Source: Bacteroidota bacterium
GTDB taxonomy: Bacteria > Bacteroidota > Bacteroidia > UKL13-3
Direction of reading: 5' to 3'
Assembly: GCA_027488905.1 (NCBI GenBank)
Contig: JAIYAT010000015.1
Location: forward strand, 1-57,951
DNA: 57,951 bases
Shown piece after piece: positions 47,531-57,225 of this stretch. How positions within the stretch are numbered: position 1 is the first letter of the stretch; each line of letters starts with the position of its first letter. A program made the position numbers and the translations under genes. Under the pieces are notes generated by a model. It was not told the DNA's origin. It saw only the letters and a program-made list of their open reading frames with translations, and ran no database searches.

Positions 47531-48673
47531 ATGATTAGGATACTATTTACCCTTATTATTCTGCTCTTTTGCGCTCATGTAAAGTCGCAAACCTTTGTTA
47601 TCAATGATGGCGATACCATCAACCTAACCTTAGCCAATGGAAAAAAGCAAGGTTTTTGGAGATATTTTTGGCCTAATGGCGATCTTAAATATGAAGTGTA
47701 CTATGAAAATGGCGAAAAAGAAGGCTTAGAAATTAGCTATTATGATGGACAAGATTGCATAGAATATTCTAATACCTACAACAAGGGAGTCCTAGATGGC
47801 CCGAGGGTTATGTTTTACCCGAATTGCAGCACCAGGGTTGAAGAAATGTACAAAAATGGTTTGAAAGATGGATACGAAAGAAACTTTGACCAAACAGGCG
47901 TTCTGCTTACCGAAGGAAATTTTCTAAAAGGAGAACTTGATGGTAGTTATGCGCATTTCGATAAAAAAGGATATGTAACTTATGAGAGTCCTTCCAAAGA
48001 AACTACTTTAAAATTCGACAAATTCCTTAGTGGAGAATATAAAATCAAAGACTCCACCCTATTCTTTGTTTTCAAAAGAAATAAAGAATGGAAAAAAATG
48101 ATGCTTGTGGTTGATATGACTGGAAGTATGTTTCCTTACATCGGTCAAATGTTGGTTTGGTATAGGCAAAACTATGAGGATGGCAGGGTTAAATACTATG
48201 CGCTTTTTAATGATGGCGACAATTTAACGGATGACAAAAAAGTTTTAGGAAGAACAGGCGGTGTCCATTCTTTTGAAGCAAAAGATTATAGAAAACTAAA
48301 AAAAGATATAGAAGATGTTAGAAAAATGGGGGAAGGTGGAGACGACCCTGAAAATGACATAGAAGCACTCACCGCTGCCATGGTAGCCTTTAGAGATTAT
48401 TCTGATATTATATTAATTGCTGATGAAAGCAATGTGCGAGACATGGCCCTTCTTAAACGTATCAAAAAACCTATCCATGTGATTATGTGTGGCACAAAAA
48501 AAGGAATCAATGAACAATACCTTCGAATTGCCTTTCAAACCAAAGGCTCCTTTCATACCATAAGCAATGATATTGATATGAAAAAACTCAAGGATGGGGA
48601 AGAGTTTCAAGTAGATAATGACATTTTTAGATTAAGTGGCGGAAAATTTATCTGGGTTGATGCCGTTGAATAA
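47531..48673 (+). CDS. Secreted MORN-repeat plus VWA-domain protein
   Basis: 380 aa with a signal peptide (MIRILFTLIILLFCAHVKSQ). Residues about 30-150 hold five or six MORN-like repeats (GKKQGFWRYFWPNGDLKYEVYYENGEKEGLEISYYDG...KNGLKDGYERNFDQTG). From about 185 there is a von Willebrand A domain: MLVVDMTGSM with MIDAS D195/T197/S199, and GGDDPENDIEALTAAM. Periplasmic or surface; likely a protein- or glycan-binding module. No partner is known. Four bp before the maf-tlpA gene. Confidence 0.8.
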   Translation: MIRILFTLIILLFCAHVKSQTFVINDGDTINLTLANGKKQGFWRYFWPNGDLKYEVYYENGEKEGLEISYYDGQDCIEYSNTYNKGVLDGPRVMFYPNCSTRVEEMYKNGLKDGYERNFDQTGVLLTEGNFLKGELDGSYAHFDKKGYVTYESPSKETTLKFDKFLSGEYKIKDSTLFFVFKRNKEWKKMMLVVDMTGSMFPYIGQMLVWYRQNYEDGRVKYYALFNDGDNLTDDKKVLGRTGGVHSFEAKDYRKLKKDIEDVRKMGEGGDDPENDIEALTAAMVAFRDYSDIILIADESNVRDMALLKRIKKPIHVIMCGTKKGINEQYLRIAFQTKGSFHTISNDIDMKKLKDGEEFQVDNDIFRLSGGKFIWVDAVE

Positions 48674-52921: not shown

Positions 52922-53149
52922 GGTACCTATGATACACCAAGGGGGTGGGTACCCATGATGTATGGAGGGGGTACCTACGATACTCCAAGGGGGTACCCAT
53001 GATACTCCAAGGGGGTACCCATGATACTCCAAGGGGGTACCCATGTTAATCCAAGGGGGTACCCATGTTAATCCAAGCAGGTACCCATGTTAATCCAAGG
53101 GGGTACCCATGTTAATCCAAGGGGGTACCCATGTTATTCGGAGGGGGTA
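52922..53149. repeat. Tandem array, ten 22-bp units with a GGGTACCC palindrome
   Basis: Ten head-to-tail units plus a partial eleventh. The unit is GGTACCCATG, then ATACTCC or TTAATCC, then AAGGG; joined units create GGGGGTACCC. Unit 2 (52944-52969) carries a 4-bp insertion. Units 3-5 share ATACTCC and 6-9 share TTAATCC, so the array grew by local duplication of sub-blocks. Units are contiguous, without spacers, so it is not a CRISPR. Between the array and 53196 is purine-rich filler (AGAGAAAGGGGGAAGAG). Confidence 0.93.
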
Positions 53150-53196
53150 GGTAAAAAGTATAGAGCAAGAGTAAAGAGAAAGGGGGAAGAGAAAGC

Positions 53197-53253
53197 AAAG
53201 TGCCTGGTTTTAGTGCAAGGGGGCTAAAAAGCGAATTTATAAAGAAAGTTTAG
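53197..53253 (+). pseudogene. Detached second copy of the phnA 3' end
   Basis: Reads KVPGFSARGLKSEFIKKV-stop, against [18 protein letters not shown]-stop at the end of phnA: 13 of 18 residues agree and the stop lies in the same place. No start or upstream phnA sequence precedes it; the tandem array takes that place. Its last bases meet the 3' end of the SGNH-like gene. Confidence 0.75.
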
Positions 53254-54176
53254 TGTGCAAAAAAATTGGCAAAAAAGAAAGAATAAAAGGAGGCACCTTT
53301 GACATTCAAATGTCCTTCGTCTGCCATTAACATAGGGTTTCTTAGTGCTGCTAAAAATTCACAATTGAAGTTAATTCGATTTTCAATTGGTATTAATTTA
53401 AACAACTGTATCAACCTTTCTTTTTGTTCATCACTGGTGGTATGGGGAGGTAAATAAAAGTACACCTTAGCGTTTGATATTTTACTTTTCTCCAAAATTA
53501 ATTTGATCAAATTTTCATAAATAATAAAATCGTGGCTTGGCTTAGCATAGTCTTTATTTAAGTCACCGCATTTAATGGAATGGTAAGGAAGTAAGTTTAA
53601 ATTTTTATTATGGACTCCAAATTTAGTCAAAGAAGAAATAGATTCATTTGAAAGCAAATAACTTAGGTAAGGTTTAATGGAAAAATAATCAAAAAAATAA
53701 GCTTCATAATAAGGAAAATAAATTTTGTATAAGTCTTCAAAGGAACTTTGTTGCATGTTAGATTCAAAGGTAGAATGAAGATAGCGTGTTTCAACAAGCA
53801 TGCTTATTTGAGTGGGTGCTTTGCCATTTACCACACCTAGTTCAATGCATAGGGTTGAATTTGAATCCATGCTTAGAATTTCTAGGGCGAGCATAGTTGA
53901 ACTTAAGAAATTAGCTGATAAAACCCCTGCATTTACCACTTTTATGTTTTTCAAACGTCTTTCAATTAGGGTATCATTTATACCATATTTTGTTCGGCTT
54001 GAACCAACAAAATAAAGTGTACTTTTAAAATTGTCCTTAGGTTGAAATAAAGATTCTGGAATACTTTTAATCCCTAAAACTTGAAAACAAAAATGTTTGA
54101 TGCCAAACACAATACCCGAAACCAGTACAAAAAAAAGCAATAGTTTGAAAGTTGATTTAATGAGAATTGCATTCAT
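53250..54176 (-). CDS. SGNH-like (DltD/AlgX-like) exported protein, MBOAT partner
   Basis: 308 aa with one N-terminal membrane anchor (KLLLFFVLVSGIVFGI). The block I motif is YFVGSSRTKYG (S59 or S60, as GSSE in DltD), followed by VVNAGVLSANF (block II-like), CIELG and a final D286-x-x-H289 (ADEGHLNVKG), the layout of SGNH hydrolases/acyltransferases. Overall similarity to named families is low. Last gene of a four-gene run, 3 bp after the MBOAT gene; expected to act outside the membrane together with it. Confidence 0.75.
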   Translation of the reverse strand: MNAILIKSTFKLLLFFVLVSGIVFGIKHFCFQVLGIKSIPESLFQPKDNFKSTLYFVGSSRTKYGINDTLIERRLKNIKVVNAGVLSANFLSSTMLALEILSMDSNSTLCIELGVVNGKAPTQISMLVETRYLHSTFESNMQQSSFEDLYKIYFPYYEAYFFDYFSIKPYLSYLLSNESISSLTKFGVHNKNLNLLPYHSIKCGDLNKDYAKPSHDFIIYENLIKLILEKSKISNAKVYFYLPPHTTSDEQKERLIQLFKLIPIENRINFNCEFLAALRNPMLMADEGHLNVKGASFYSFFFANFFAH

Positions 54177-54179
54177 AAT

Positions 54180-55589
54180 TTAAAACTTAAAGTAATAATT
54201 ATTTATAGACCAAAAAGTGGTGAAAGCAGAAATCCCTATGGCTAAGAATATATATATAAACCATCTTTTTGAAAAACTTAAAGTATCGAGGTAAACATCA
54301 AAATTATGAGCACCCATTTTTCTGCTTATCCAATCAAATGGTGCAAAAAGTAAGAAAATGATTAGGCCATGTTTAAACAACCAATATAATGTAACACTGT
54401 TACAAGTTGTGGGAGAGAATAGTTTACTATAGGTTAATAAAGGCAACTTTGAACTAAAAATAATCGCTAAAAAAGAGGCAAATATTAAATGATAGAATAA
54501 ACCCAAAACATTCTTTACCCTAGGTGAAATGAAATTGAAGTATGGCAGAAGCCTTTCTTCGGTAATTACCCATAATCCATTCAACAAGCCCCAAATTGCA
54601 AATTGAAATGAAATGCCATGCCAAAGTCCAATGAGTAAAAATGTAATAAGCATGGCAATATTCAAACCTAGTTTGCTTCTTACTTTCTTTGCAATGGCAA
54701 AAAAAAAGTAATCTCTAAACCAATTATTAAGCGTTATATGCCATTCACTCCAGAACTTTTTACGAGAGGTAGAGGCGTATACTCTATTTCCAAAATTTCT
54801 AACTAATTGTATATTGAAAATCCGTGATATGCCAGTGAATATATCAACATAGGAACTAAATGTAAAGTATAAATAAAAGAAAAAAGATAAACCTTGGAGA
54901 AGGATTAAAAACCCACTTGCATCACTTTTTTCAATGGTTTTCATGTAAATATAAAACTGTTGACCAAGCACAAAATTTTTGAACACTCCCCATAGAAACA
55001 ACCTAAAGCCATAAGAGAAATTTCGATAAGATAAAAACAACTCACCTTTAAACTGACCTAAAAGTTGAGAACTTCTGAGCAATGGCCCAGATAATAATAT
55101 TGGAAAAAAAATAATATAAAGTAAAATTCTTAGAAAATTTGGTTCAGGTTTTACATACCTCTTTCGTATGTCTATTAGATACCCAATCCCATTGAAAGTA
55201 AAATAAGAAAAACATAAAAATGTAGGTGTTAAACTATTAAAATACGAATACTCTATTACAATACTTGAATCATTCCAATTTGTATTAATAGGAATAATTG
55301 AAGATAATTTAGAACCAAGTAAAGGTATGAGACATAGTAAAACATACCAAGCAGTTACTGTCTTTGCTAGATTATGGTTGAGACTAATTTTATTTATATG
55401 ATGGGATCCAATATAAACTACCGCTGCAAAAACCAAGGCGATTATAACTTGATATCCTAAAGTTAAGCTGTAAAAAAGTAAGCTAATAAATAGTAAGACA
55501 ATCCATCTATGGCTTGGTTTGAAAATTATAAAGCCAACCACACCGGCAAGTATGGAAATAAAAAGAATAGAAAAATTTATACTTAACAT
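54180..55589 (-). CDS. MBOAT-family O-acyltransferase (AlgI/DltB-like)
   Basis: 469 aa, ten or more membrane helices. Typical sites: FNGIGYLIDIRKRYVKPEPNFLRILLYIIFFPILLSGPL, FWSEWHITLNNWFRDYFFF (H284) and LIGLWHGISFQFAIWGLLNG with the family's catalytic H324. Such proteins pass an acyl group across or at the membrane to a polysaccharide or lipid on the far side. Overlaps the P450 gene by 7 nt. Confidence 0.93.
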   Translation of the reverse strand: MLSINFSILFISILAGVVGFIIFKPSHRWIVLLFISLLFYSLTLGYQVIIALVFAAVVYIGSHHINKISLNHNLAKTVTAWYVLLCLIPLLGSKLSSIIPINTNWNDSSIVIEYSYFNSLTPTFLCFSYFTFNGIGYLIDIRKRYVKPEPNFLRILLYIIFFPILLSGPLLRSSQLLGQFKGELFLSYRNFSYGFRLFLWGVFKNFVLGQQFYIYMKTIEKSDASGFLILLQGLSFFFYLYFTFSSYVDIFTGISRIFNIQLVRNFGNRVYASTSRKKFWSEWHITLNNWFRDYFFFAIAKKVRSKLGLNIAMLITFLLIGLWHGISFQFAIWGLLNGLWVITEERLLPYFNFISPRVKNVLGLFYHLIFASFLAIIFSSKLPLLTYSKLFSPTTCNSVTLYWLFKHGLIIFLLFAPFDWISRKMGAHNFDVYLDTLSFSKRWFIYIFLAIGISAFTTFWSINNYYFKF

Positions 55590-56800
55590 TCCGATTTTTT
55601 ACGTGTTGCAATTAAGCTTTGCATCCCCCGCATGAAAATAGTTTTTTGCCAAACTGGTTCGGCCTTAACATCCAACTTATATTCGTTTAAAAAGAGGGTT
55701 ACAGGCTTTAGCCAATTTCTAATTTCATTTCTTGCAATTTTTGCACCTAGACAAGAATGAATTCCAGTTCCAAAAGATAAATGGGGATTATACTTTCTAT
55801 TAAAAATTATTGAATCTGGCATTTCAAAAATTTCGGGATCCCTATTAGCGGCGGCCAATGATAAAAACAATCTATCTCCTTTATTTACTTTTTGATTACT
55901 AATCACACAATTTTCATTTGCAATTCTAACTGTGTATTGGAGTGGAGAAACATACCTTAATAATTCTTCTGATAACACATTAATTGCGGTGTCATCTGCC
56001 TTGAGAATCCAGTCAGATAATTCTGGATTTTTTAATATCTCAAACAAAATTACACTCATCGAATCCTTGGTGGTTTCTAAGGCAGCCATAAAAACTACAA
56101 TCAGAATAGAGATGATTTCATCATTGGTAAAATCAGTTGATTTTAAAGAATCTGCCTGTTTTAAAAGCGTTACTATGTTAGATTGGGTGGCCGCATCGCT
56201 CCTGTTATATAGATCTCCAAAAAAATCAAAGGCCCAACTAAAAACAGCATTTATTTCCCGATAAACACTTTTTGGAACGAATATATCTTGAGAGACTGCC
56301 AATAAATGTGAAAACCTTTTTAATTCTTGAAGCTTGCACATGCCTTCAATGCCAAAAAACGACTCAATAACATACAGTGGAATTTGGGTTGAAATATCAA
56401 CAATATCTATTATATCATTTTGCTTATTGGCTCGTATACAATTCTCAACGGCCGTTTCGATAACTGGATTAAAATTAAATTGCCTAAGGACAGAATCAAC
56501 TAACTGTTTTGTATTTTCATGTTCTTTATCATTTAAATACATGAGCCATTTTGCGGTACCTCTAGATAAAAAAGGGCAAACGCTCTCCCCTAAAATTATT
56601 GACTCCTTTTCTTTAAAAAAACCAGATAAGTTAGTGACACCAAATGAAGGGGATTTCAAGATTGTTTTAACATCTTTATACTTAAAAAACAATAACTCTT
56701 TGTGCACACCATAATGGATTGGAGCCTGCTCTCTACAATCCTTTAAATGAATATAGGGATTACTAAAATAACCGGGTGTATAAGGATTCCATATAATCAT
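55583..56800 (-). CDS. Cytochrome P450
   Basis: 405 aa, soluble bacterial P450. Heme-thiolate loop LSFGTGIHSCLGAKIARNE (C350), ExxR in EELLRYVSP (E279/R282), I-helix acid-alcohol pair in MAALETTKDS (E242/T243, with Ala at the usual glycine). Needs a ferredoxin and reductase, not encoded here. The ATG overlaps the ACP stop by one base (TAATG), so it is coupled to the ACP; an ACP-bound substrate is therefore likely, as known for P450-BioI and carrier-bound amino-acid hydroxylases. Confidence 0.95.
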   Translation of the reverse strand: MIIWNPYTPGYFSNPYIHLKDCREQAPIHYGVHKELLFFKYKDVKTILKSPSFGVTNLSGFFKEKESIILGESVCPFLSRGTAKWLMYLNDKEHENTKQLVDSVLRQFNFNPVIETAVENCIRANKQNDIIDIVDISTQIPLYVIESFFGIEGMCKLQELKRFSHLLAVSQDIFVPKSVYREINAVFSWAFDFFGDLYNRSDAATQSNIVTLLKQADSLKSTDFTNDEIISILIVVFMAALETTKDSMSVILFEILKNPELSDWILKADDTAINVLSEELLRYVSPLQYTVRIANENCVISNQKVNKGDRLFLSLAAANRDPEIFEMPDSIIFNRKYNPHLSFGTGIHSCLGAKIARNEIRNWLKPVTLFLNEYKLDVKAEPVWQKTIFMRGMQSLIATRKKSEC

Positions 56801-57036
56801 TAGGTGTTGGATTGAATCGCCTCTGAAAGCAGTCGGATACTATTATATTGATAAAACAAAGTTGGATCAATCTCCCTACCTAATATAGTTTCTAAATCAA
56901 ATGAGACTGTAATCATAGAAAGTGAGTCTAAATTAAAAGAATCAAATGGGACATCAATTTTTACTTGGTCTTTATTTAGTCCAGTTTCCTCGGAAATTTT
57001 TTCAACCAGCCAATCCTGAATTTGTGCTTGATTCAT
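56800..57036 (-). CDS. Acyl carrier protein (PKS-type, stand-alone)
   Basis: 78 aa. Phosphopantetheine attachment site DSFNLDSLSM with S38. The segment LETILGREIDPTLFYQYNSIRLLSEAI follows the pattern of polyketide/nonribosomal carrier domains (..LGR.I..TLLF.YPTI..LA) more than that of the fatty-acid AcpP. First gene of the run ACP-P450-MBOAT-SGNH. Confidence 0.93.
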   Translation of the reverse strand: MNQAQIQDWLVEKISEETGLNKDQVKIDVPFDSFNLDSLSMITVSFDLETILGREIDPTLFYQYNSIRLLSEAIQSNT

Positions 57037-57225
57037 AAAAAATGTTAGATAGGAAACAAAATTCCTACTTTTAATTTAAAGTTTTATTTTATTTTTTGTT
57101 TAAAGATTATTTTAAATAGAAATGAAGTTAATTTCTATCTTCATTTATGCCAAGCTTTGCAGCCACTCATACACTGTGCTTTGTAATTTATAAATATACC
57201 CTTTGGCTTAATTAAAGCCTACCAT

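Follow-up and report, generated by a model that had tools for sequence, protein, structure and literature searches.

The window analysed here is a stretch of 57,951 nt from a Bacteroidota bacterium (GenBank assembly GCA_027488905.1, contig JAIYAT010000015.1, positions 1 to 57,951). It carries on its minus strand a compact candidate operon of four genes, which encode an acyl-carrier protein (ACP; 56800..57036, 78 residues), a cytochrome P450 (55583..56800, 405 residues), a membrane-bound O-acyltransferase (MBOAT; 54180..55589, 469 residues) and an SGNH-fold protein (53250..54176, 308 residues). All four open reading frames (ORFs) had been recognized, the last as SGNH-like, in a first-pass annotation of the same letters, and measurement of the junctions bore out the couplings that it gave: the ACP and P450 genes have 1 nt in common (TAATG), the P450 and MBOAT genes overlap by 7 nt and a gap of 3 nt separates the MBOAT and SGNH genes.

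The same gene order was found in six genomes, namely that of the window (G000), G005 (locus L015), G443 (L016), G444 (L017), G702 (L049) and G614 (L050). In G539 (L051) an ACP gene is followed by a P450 gene inside which the contig ends. Seven loci were therefore available in all, six of them complete and two near-identical. The original proposal would have fallen had these genes failed to co-occur elsewhere; every locus uncut by a contig end (6/6) is complete. Identity to the window proteins falls in parallel across the loci, from 94 to 37% for the P450, 93 to 41% for the MBOAT, 92 to 37% for the ACP and 88 to 18% for the SGNH protein. At each of the six complete loci the ACP gene overlaps the P450 gene (by 1 nt in five and 22 nt in one, with the starts as chosen), and the P450 gene lies between those of the ACP and the MBOAT. 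The ratio of nonsynonymous to synonymous divergence between the window and G005 is 0.14–0.35 in all four genes, which, with the recurrence of the order in the five other genomes, places the ORFs beyond chance. The four window proteins gave no match at E 0.001 to PADLOC (anti-phage) or PHROGs (phage).

The operon is rare in the sampled genomes. These samples overlap and, with the exception of the pattern scan below, consist of Bacteroidota, the only phylum on which the profiles were run. A search with the single P450 (E 1e-20) matched 7 of 147 relatives, only G000 and G005 being close. At 1e-40 the P450 profiles matched 2 of 395 genomes of the class (G000 and G005) and, in the family of G443, 4 of 294; the order gave 5 of 64 at 1e-30 (the close ones again G000 and G005) and the phylum 2 of 395 at 1e-35 (G000 and G332). 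With the ACP profile (1e-12) seven of 394 genomes were recovered: four operon carriers and three in which the match lies inside frames of 1,894–1,908 residues. A pattern scan, sensitive to close relatives only, of a collection of 84,980 species returned three loci, all complete. The P450 matches in G003, G010 and G332 were considered as operon members and rejected, with no ACP or MBOAT ORF within about 1.5 kb on each side; those in G016, G095 and G146 were left outside this neighbourhood check. Among plasmid records, the matches to the P450 (1194 records) and the MBOAT (91 records) were all below 60% identity and the SGNH protein had none. No system composed of an ACP, a P450, an MBOAT and an SGNH protein was found in the open-access literature, a scope that leaves out most subscription journals; the first-pass annotation likewise knew of none, and none is described in the available portions of PMC9558356 and PMC12419801.

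Synonymous divergence (dS) between the window and G005 was calculated by NG86. Inside the operon it is 0.11 for the ACP, 0.20 for the P450, 0.16 for the MBOAT and 0.26 for the SGNH protein, whereas the five neighbours compared give 1.2 (yjdM), 4.0 (pyrophosphatase; saturated), 1.4 (ClC), 2.2 (Maf fusion) and 1.9 (the ORF at 47531-48673). The two genomes have common neighbours on the yjdM side of the operon. A block of 92.9% identity to G005 with blastn boundaries 53195..57170, unassigned to a strand, is taken as the transferred unit. It begins within an orphan yjdM/phnA 3' end (53195..53254, plus strand) that abuts the SGNH stop codon. This orphan end agrees with the G005 yjdM at 52 of 58 nt and with the window's own intact yjdM at 47 of 58; the intact yjdM genes of the two genomes have 51 of 58 nt in common. 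The low dS inside the operon against the high dS outside it, together with an orphan end nearer to G005, points to recent transfer via recombination at yjdM, and the operon seems from these sequences to have moved between genomes as a unit.

Transfer had initially been suggested by the AT-richness of the block. The composition was confirmed (31.3% GC against 36.0% for the window, and 31.0 against 36.1 for the flanks in G005) and transfer is upheld by dS, but GC content itself fails as a sign of it, since in three of the four other loci GC is higher in the block than in the flanks (41.8 versus 38.4, 37.9 versus 36.3 and 49.7 versus 48.3%) and in only one is it lower (38.6 versus 41.2%). The flanks were also compared all against all, using ORFs of at least 100 residues and up to 9 kb of flank (much less where contigs end). 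Between the distant loci the only matches were a weak one of 24% (window 47531-48673 with L016) and one of 66% for yjdM (window with L050). An insertion site at yjdM common to the window and G614 was considered on this account and is not claimed: in L050 the yjdM gene is on the other flank of the operon and a GH97 gene intervenes.

Several further features were recorded around the loci. A GC-rich tandem array with a 22-bp unit (52966..53149, plus strand; 8.4 copies and 93% matches by Tandem Repeats Finder) lies between the orphan end and the intact yjdM. In G005 the SGNH and yjdM genes overlap at their ends and no such array is present at the junction; G005 carries another, different tandem-repeat array upstream of its ACP gene (L015 275-633). 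The window segment 48677-50620 is a single ORF of 647 residues in which a Maf-like domain is fused to one resembling thioredoxin/AhpC-TSA, and a 651-residue ORF of G005 aligns with it over its full length. In G444 the contig that carries the operon (L017 277-4035) is 9.7 kb long and also encodes a HipA-like kinase and type I methyltransferase and specificity proteins, and in G443 a ParE-like toxin gene adjoins it (L016 11591-11890).

The MBOAT matches PF03062 (E 6.6e-19) and is a relative of DltB of solved structure (E 6.7e-16). A catalytic role is suggested for His324 (codon 54620-54618, minus strand), which is conserved in 6/6 cassette MBOATs. The chain closes with a hexapeptide, NYYFKF (54183..54200, minus strand), predicted to act as an acyl-Tyr shuttle through Tyr466. 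All six cassette MBOATs end in [NS]YY[FA][KRQ]F, with the Tyr and the final Phe kept throughout, and the other six MBOATs of the window's genome all end in F[IV]YF[QKR]F; the shuttle motif is given as FXYXXF in PMC12148441. A tree of 17 rows, with a long DltB row of unsure placement, groups the cassette MBOATs in a single clade (support 100/100) set on a long branch. The DltB model TIGR04091, with a cut-off of 375 bits, gave 110–143 bits for the cassette MBOATs scanned, four of the six, and 134–157 bits for four of the six other MBOATs of the window's genome. Scoring no higher than ordinary MBOATs, those of the cassette are not DltB-like beyond the superfamily.

The fourth protein gave no significant Pfam match; when six members of its alignment were scanned, one returned Lipase_GDSL_2 (E 0.072). 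Structure prediction, which the first-pass annotation had put forward as a check, yielded an SGNH fold with matches to DltD, TesA and PatB. The AlphaFold model used was obtained with a six-sequence alignment (mean pLDDT 80.2, pTM 0.82) and replaced a first model from four sequences that was too poor (pLDDT 54); the four runs other than the one used gave pLDDT values of 41.7–65.7. An N-terminal helix (residues 2–34) is taken as a predicted membrane anchor. Foldseek placed DltD first (E 2.8e-4) with TesA close behind. VIA-align matched the model to TesA (Z 15.4, root-mean-square deviation 2.5, 157 aligned) and PatB (Z 13.9, root-mean-square deviation 3.0, 176 aligned); DltD was not among the 50 matches listed, which does not exclude a likeness to it. 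Six-sequence conservation marks Ser60, Asp286 and His289 (within 53250..54176, minus strand) as a putative triad, Ser60 and His289 being present in 6/6 and Asp286 in 5/6. The conserved residues thus support the view that the MBOAT and the SGNH protein are equipped as a transmembrane acyl-transfer pair.

The ACP (PF00550, E 1.6e-11) carries a phosphopantetheine Ser at position 38 (codon 56925-56923, minus strand) in a conserved DSL motif that is found in 7/7 cassette ACPs. Its nearest solved chain is the mycolic-acid polyketide synthase (PKS) ACP 7wrp (E 2.4e-10). The P450 (PF00067, E 5.3e-21) has a heme-thiolate Cys350 assigned by motif conservation (codon 55753-55751, minus strand), an acid–alcohol pair E242–T243 and an ExxR motif at 279–282 (within 55583..56800, minus strand). 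Residues E242, T243, E279 and R282 are kept in 7/7 and Cys350 in 6/6 full-length proteins. The FGxGxHxCxG heme site, ExxR and the acid–alcohol pair are signature motifs of cytochrome P450 monooxygenases, and all three occur in 6/6 full-length P450s. The top solved relative is BioI (3ejb, E 2.5e-29, 105.7 bits). BioI (CYP107H1 from Bacillus subtilis) is, according to PMC10741444, a P450 that acts on ACP-linked fatty acyl chains; a like use of the carrier by the operon P450 is a proposal. BioI differs in that it serves biotin precursor synthesis, and its sequence likeness to the operon P450 is only general. That the P450 acts on an ACP-bound chain is what we infer from gene order and this precedent.

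We give an even chance to the reading that the four genes are a self-contained operon, mobile by horizontal transfer, that serves carrier-fed acyl transfer across the membrane and includes an oxidation step. Its observed basis is gene content, fixed order, residue conservation, the predicted SGNH fold and a pattern of divergence in keeping with joint movement of the genes. In the scheme proposed, a host phosphopantetheinyl transferase would arm the ACP; PF01648, the family of such enzymes, has one match in each of six genomes. An acyl group from general fatty-acid metabolism, delivered as acyl-ACP from fatty-acid synthesis or as acyl-CoA via a FadD-like ligase, would then be passed to the ACP, and the P450, served by an unlinked host redox partner, would oxidize it on the carrier as BioI does. 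Through His324 the MBOAT would place the acyl group on its own C-terminal Tyr466 at the outer face, as the conserved residues and the PatA precedent suggest. Ser60 of the SGNH protein would finally take up the acyl group and esterify an acceptor, probably a glycan or a lipid, in the envelope.

Several observations weigh against this scheme. The first position of the shuttle motif is N or S in all six cassette MBOATs instead of the F of FXYXXF. The Foldseek match of the SGNH model to DltD has low TM-scores (0.38/0.31), and the SGNH protein of G614 has Ser in place of the triad Asp286 and Leu in place of Asn117. No loading enzyme is encoded in the operon at the six complete loci, and no dedicated one was identified in the four genomes searched (ten AMP-binding frames named; G702 and G614 were not searched). 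The 22 ferredoxin matches to PF00111, found across 6/6 genomes, include none at the operon (other ferredoxin types were not searched). The loci have no acceptor-synthesis genes in common, and the other MBOAT/SGNH pathways are, according to PMC12148441, without a carrier protein and evidently fed by acyl-CoA. The lead of BioI among solved P450s is also slim, at 105.7 bits against 104.9 for 3wec and 99.9 for PksS, so that carrier-bound chemistry cannot be read from the P450 sequence.

The near-equal score of PksS, which acts on a free substrate, leaves room for a system in which the MBOAT and SGNH protein acylate the envelope from the ACP and the P450 works on a free or already transferred substrate (e.g. 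a lipid acceptor), its oxidation being uncoupled from the carrier. The invariable overlap of the ACP and P450 genes and the position of the latter ahead of the MBOAT gene argue otherwise, and we consider such uncoupling somewhat unlikely.

The source of the cargo was approached through the AMP-binding proteins. In the window's genome these are AcsA, a FadD-like protein, a MenE-like protein and an adenylation–carrier protein, the last of which scores 133 bits against a DltA model with a cut-off of 476. G444 has only AcsA (acetate–CoA ligase) and a FadD-like ligase, and G443 has four matches, named as two FadD-like proteins and one AcsA, with a 225-residue piece near a contig end as the fourth; the completeness of these two assemblies is not given. 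G005 has seven matches, of which one was named. From this inventory the cargo is more likely to be a fatty acyl group from core metabolism than an amino acid. Loading by fatty-acid synthesis or by an unlinked ligase had both been envisaged at the outset; the second route, as a supply of aminoacyl groups, is weakened by the content of G444 and keeps a small probability. One candidate for such a ligase is the adenylation–carrier protein of the window's genome, an 828-residue protein on contig C21 whose start is overlapped by a 247-residue ORF (both within L020 55-3271). Its adenylation domain matches amino-acid adenylation as well as DltA models, below their cut-offs, and a frame of 835 residues in G005 shows this layout too, with AMP-binding matches. 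A Dlt-like aminoacyl system supplied by such a ligase is nevertheless very unlikely: no such frame is found in operon-bearing G444 or among the three named G443 frames (G702 and G614 were not searched), the 828-residue protein has a carrier domain of its own and the operon MBOATs are not DltB-like beyond the superfamily. A second small ACP was noted at L026 1495-3193, followed by ketoacyl-synthase-like and short-chain-dehydrogenase-like ORFs and lying behind sugar-transferase-like ORFs (read by eye); this stretch is perhaps another carrier-based surface modification.

The destination of the acyl group may likewise be viewed in another way, with the four genes as a very small biosynthetic cluster in which the SGNH protein would release or transfer the oxidized acyl group to give a secreted small molecule or lipid and not a surface polymer. 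The flanks have no glycan-synthesis genes in common, the ACP resembles PKS ACPs and three of the seven ACP-profile matches fall inside the frames of 1,894–1,908 residues, all of which would suit such a product. An SGNH protein with an anchor-like N-terminal helix, partnered by a shuttle-bearing MBOAT, is by contrast the arrangement of envelope acylation (PMC12148441), and a secreted product appears quite unlikely.

If envelope acylation is retained, a more speculative extension, which we hold to be rather unlikely, is that the operon is a mobile surface-conversion element: it would dress the envelope with a P450-tailored, carrier-delivered acyl ester and spread in Bacteroidota by changing what phages, predators or hosts see. 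Such an element would be a third MBOAT–SGNH export layout beside Dlt and PatA/AlgI, with oxidation on the carrier before export. The MBOAT–SGNH systems that PMC12148441 names as examples move acetyl groups supplied by acetyl-CoA or D-alanine supplied by a carrier. The existence of a fixed unit that has a carrier and an oxidase of its own suggests that cargo can be built and oxidized on the carrier first, and surfaces could therefore bear hydroxylated or cleaved acyl chains not yet sought. Both the ACP and the P450 appear to be soluble and of a size that allows direct testing, and the recent transfer makes donor–recipient comparisons possible.

The Dlt pathway consists of DltA, DltB, DltC, DltD and DltX and carries out the D-alanylation of teichoic acids. 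The operon resembles it in bringing together a dedicated carrier with a phosphopantetheine Ser, an MBOAT and an SGNH protein. It differs in having no DltA in 6/6 complete loci, in the addition of a P450, in an MBOAT that is not DltB-like above background and in its Bacteroidota host. The putative shuttle Tyr is on the MBOAT of the operon, whereas in Dlt it is on DltX (PMC12148441), for which gene junctions of at most 7 nt leave no room (an unlinked DltX was not searched for). Membership of Dlt was rejected on the MBOAT scores (110–143 bits against a cut-off of 375) and the lack of a ligase in the operon. Of the dlt-like export-acylation system described in the first-pass annotation, the carrier and the MBOAT/SGNH pair stand, and the assignment to Dlt itself is withdrawn in view of the DltB scores, the Tyr motif on the MBOAT and the operon's lack of a ligase gene.

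PatA/PatB and AlgI-type acetylation provide the other comparison. According to PMC12148441, PatA acylates a Tyr in its own C-terminal hexapeptide, PatB takes the acyl group on a Ser and these systems use acyl-CoA with no carrier. Like them, the operon sets an SGNH protein beside an MBOAT that ends in a Tyr hexapeptide, but this hexapeptide is [NS]YYxxF and not FxYFxF, and an ACP and a P450 are present in 6/6 complete loci. It is a hybrid, combining carrier use as seen in Dlt with a putative PatA-style fused shuttle and adding a P450. The combination of carrier and fused shuttle also occurs elsewhere, as indicated by plasmid pB218 of Metabacillus sp. B2-18 (NZ_CP088246.1; L089 3760-8088), which encodes an ACP, an AMP ligase, an MBOAT ending in FIYGGF and a fourth protein that has no Pfam match and is SGNH-like by motif reading only. 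Judged by its sequence, that stretch encodes an MBOAT system that is fed by a carrier, has its shuttle fused and is not Dlt; it differs from the operon in having the AMP ligase in place of the P450, an MBOAT outside the cassette clade and a host of a different phylum. The operon is accordingly filed with the MBOAT–SGNH kind, as a variant with a carrier and an oxidase, and not with Dlt.

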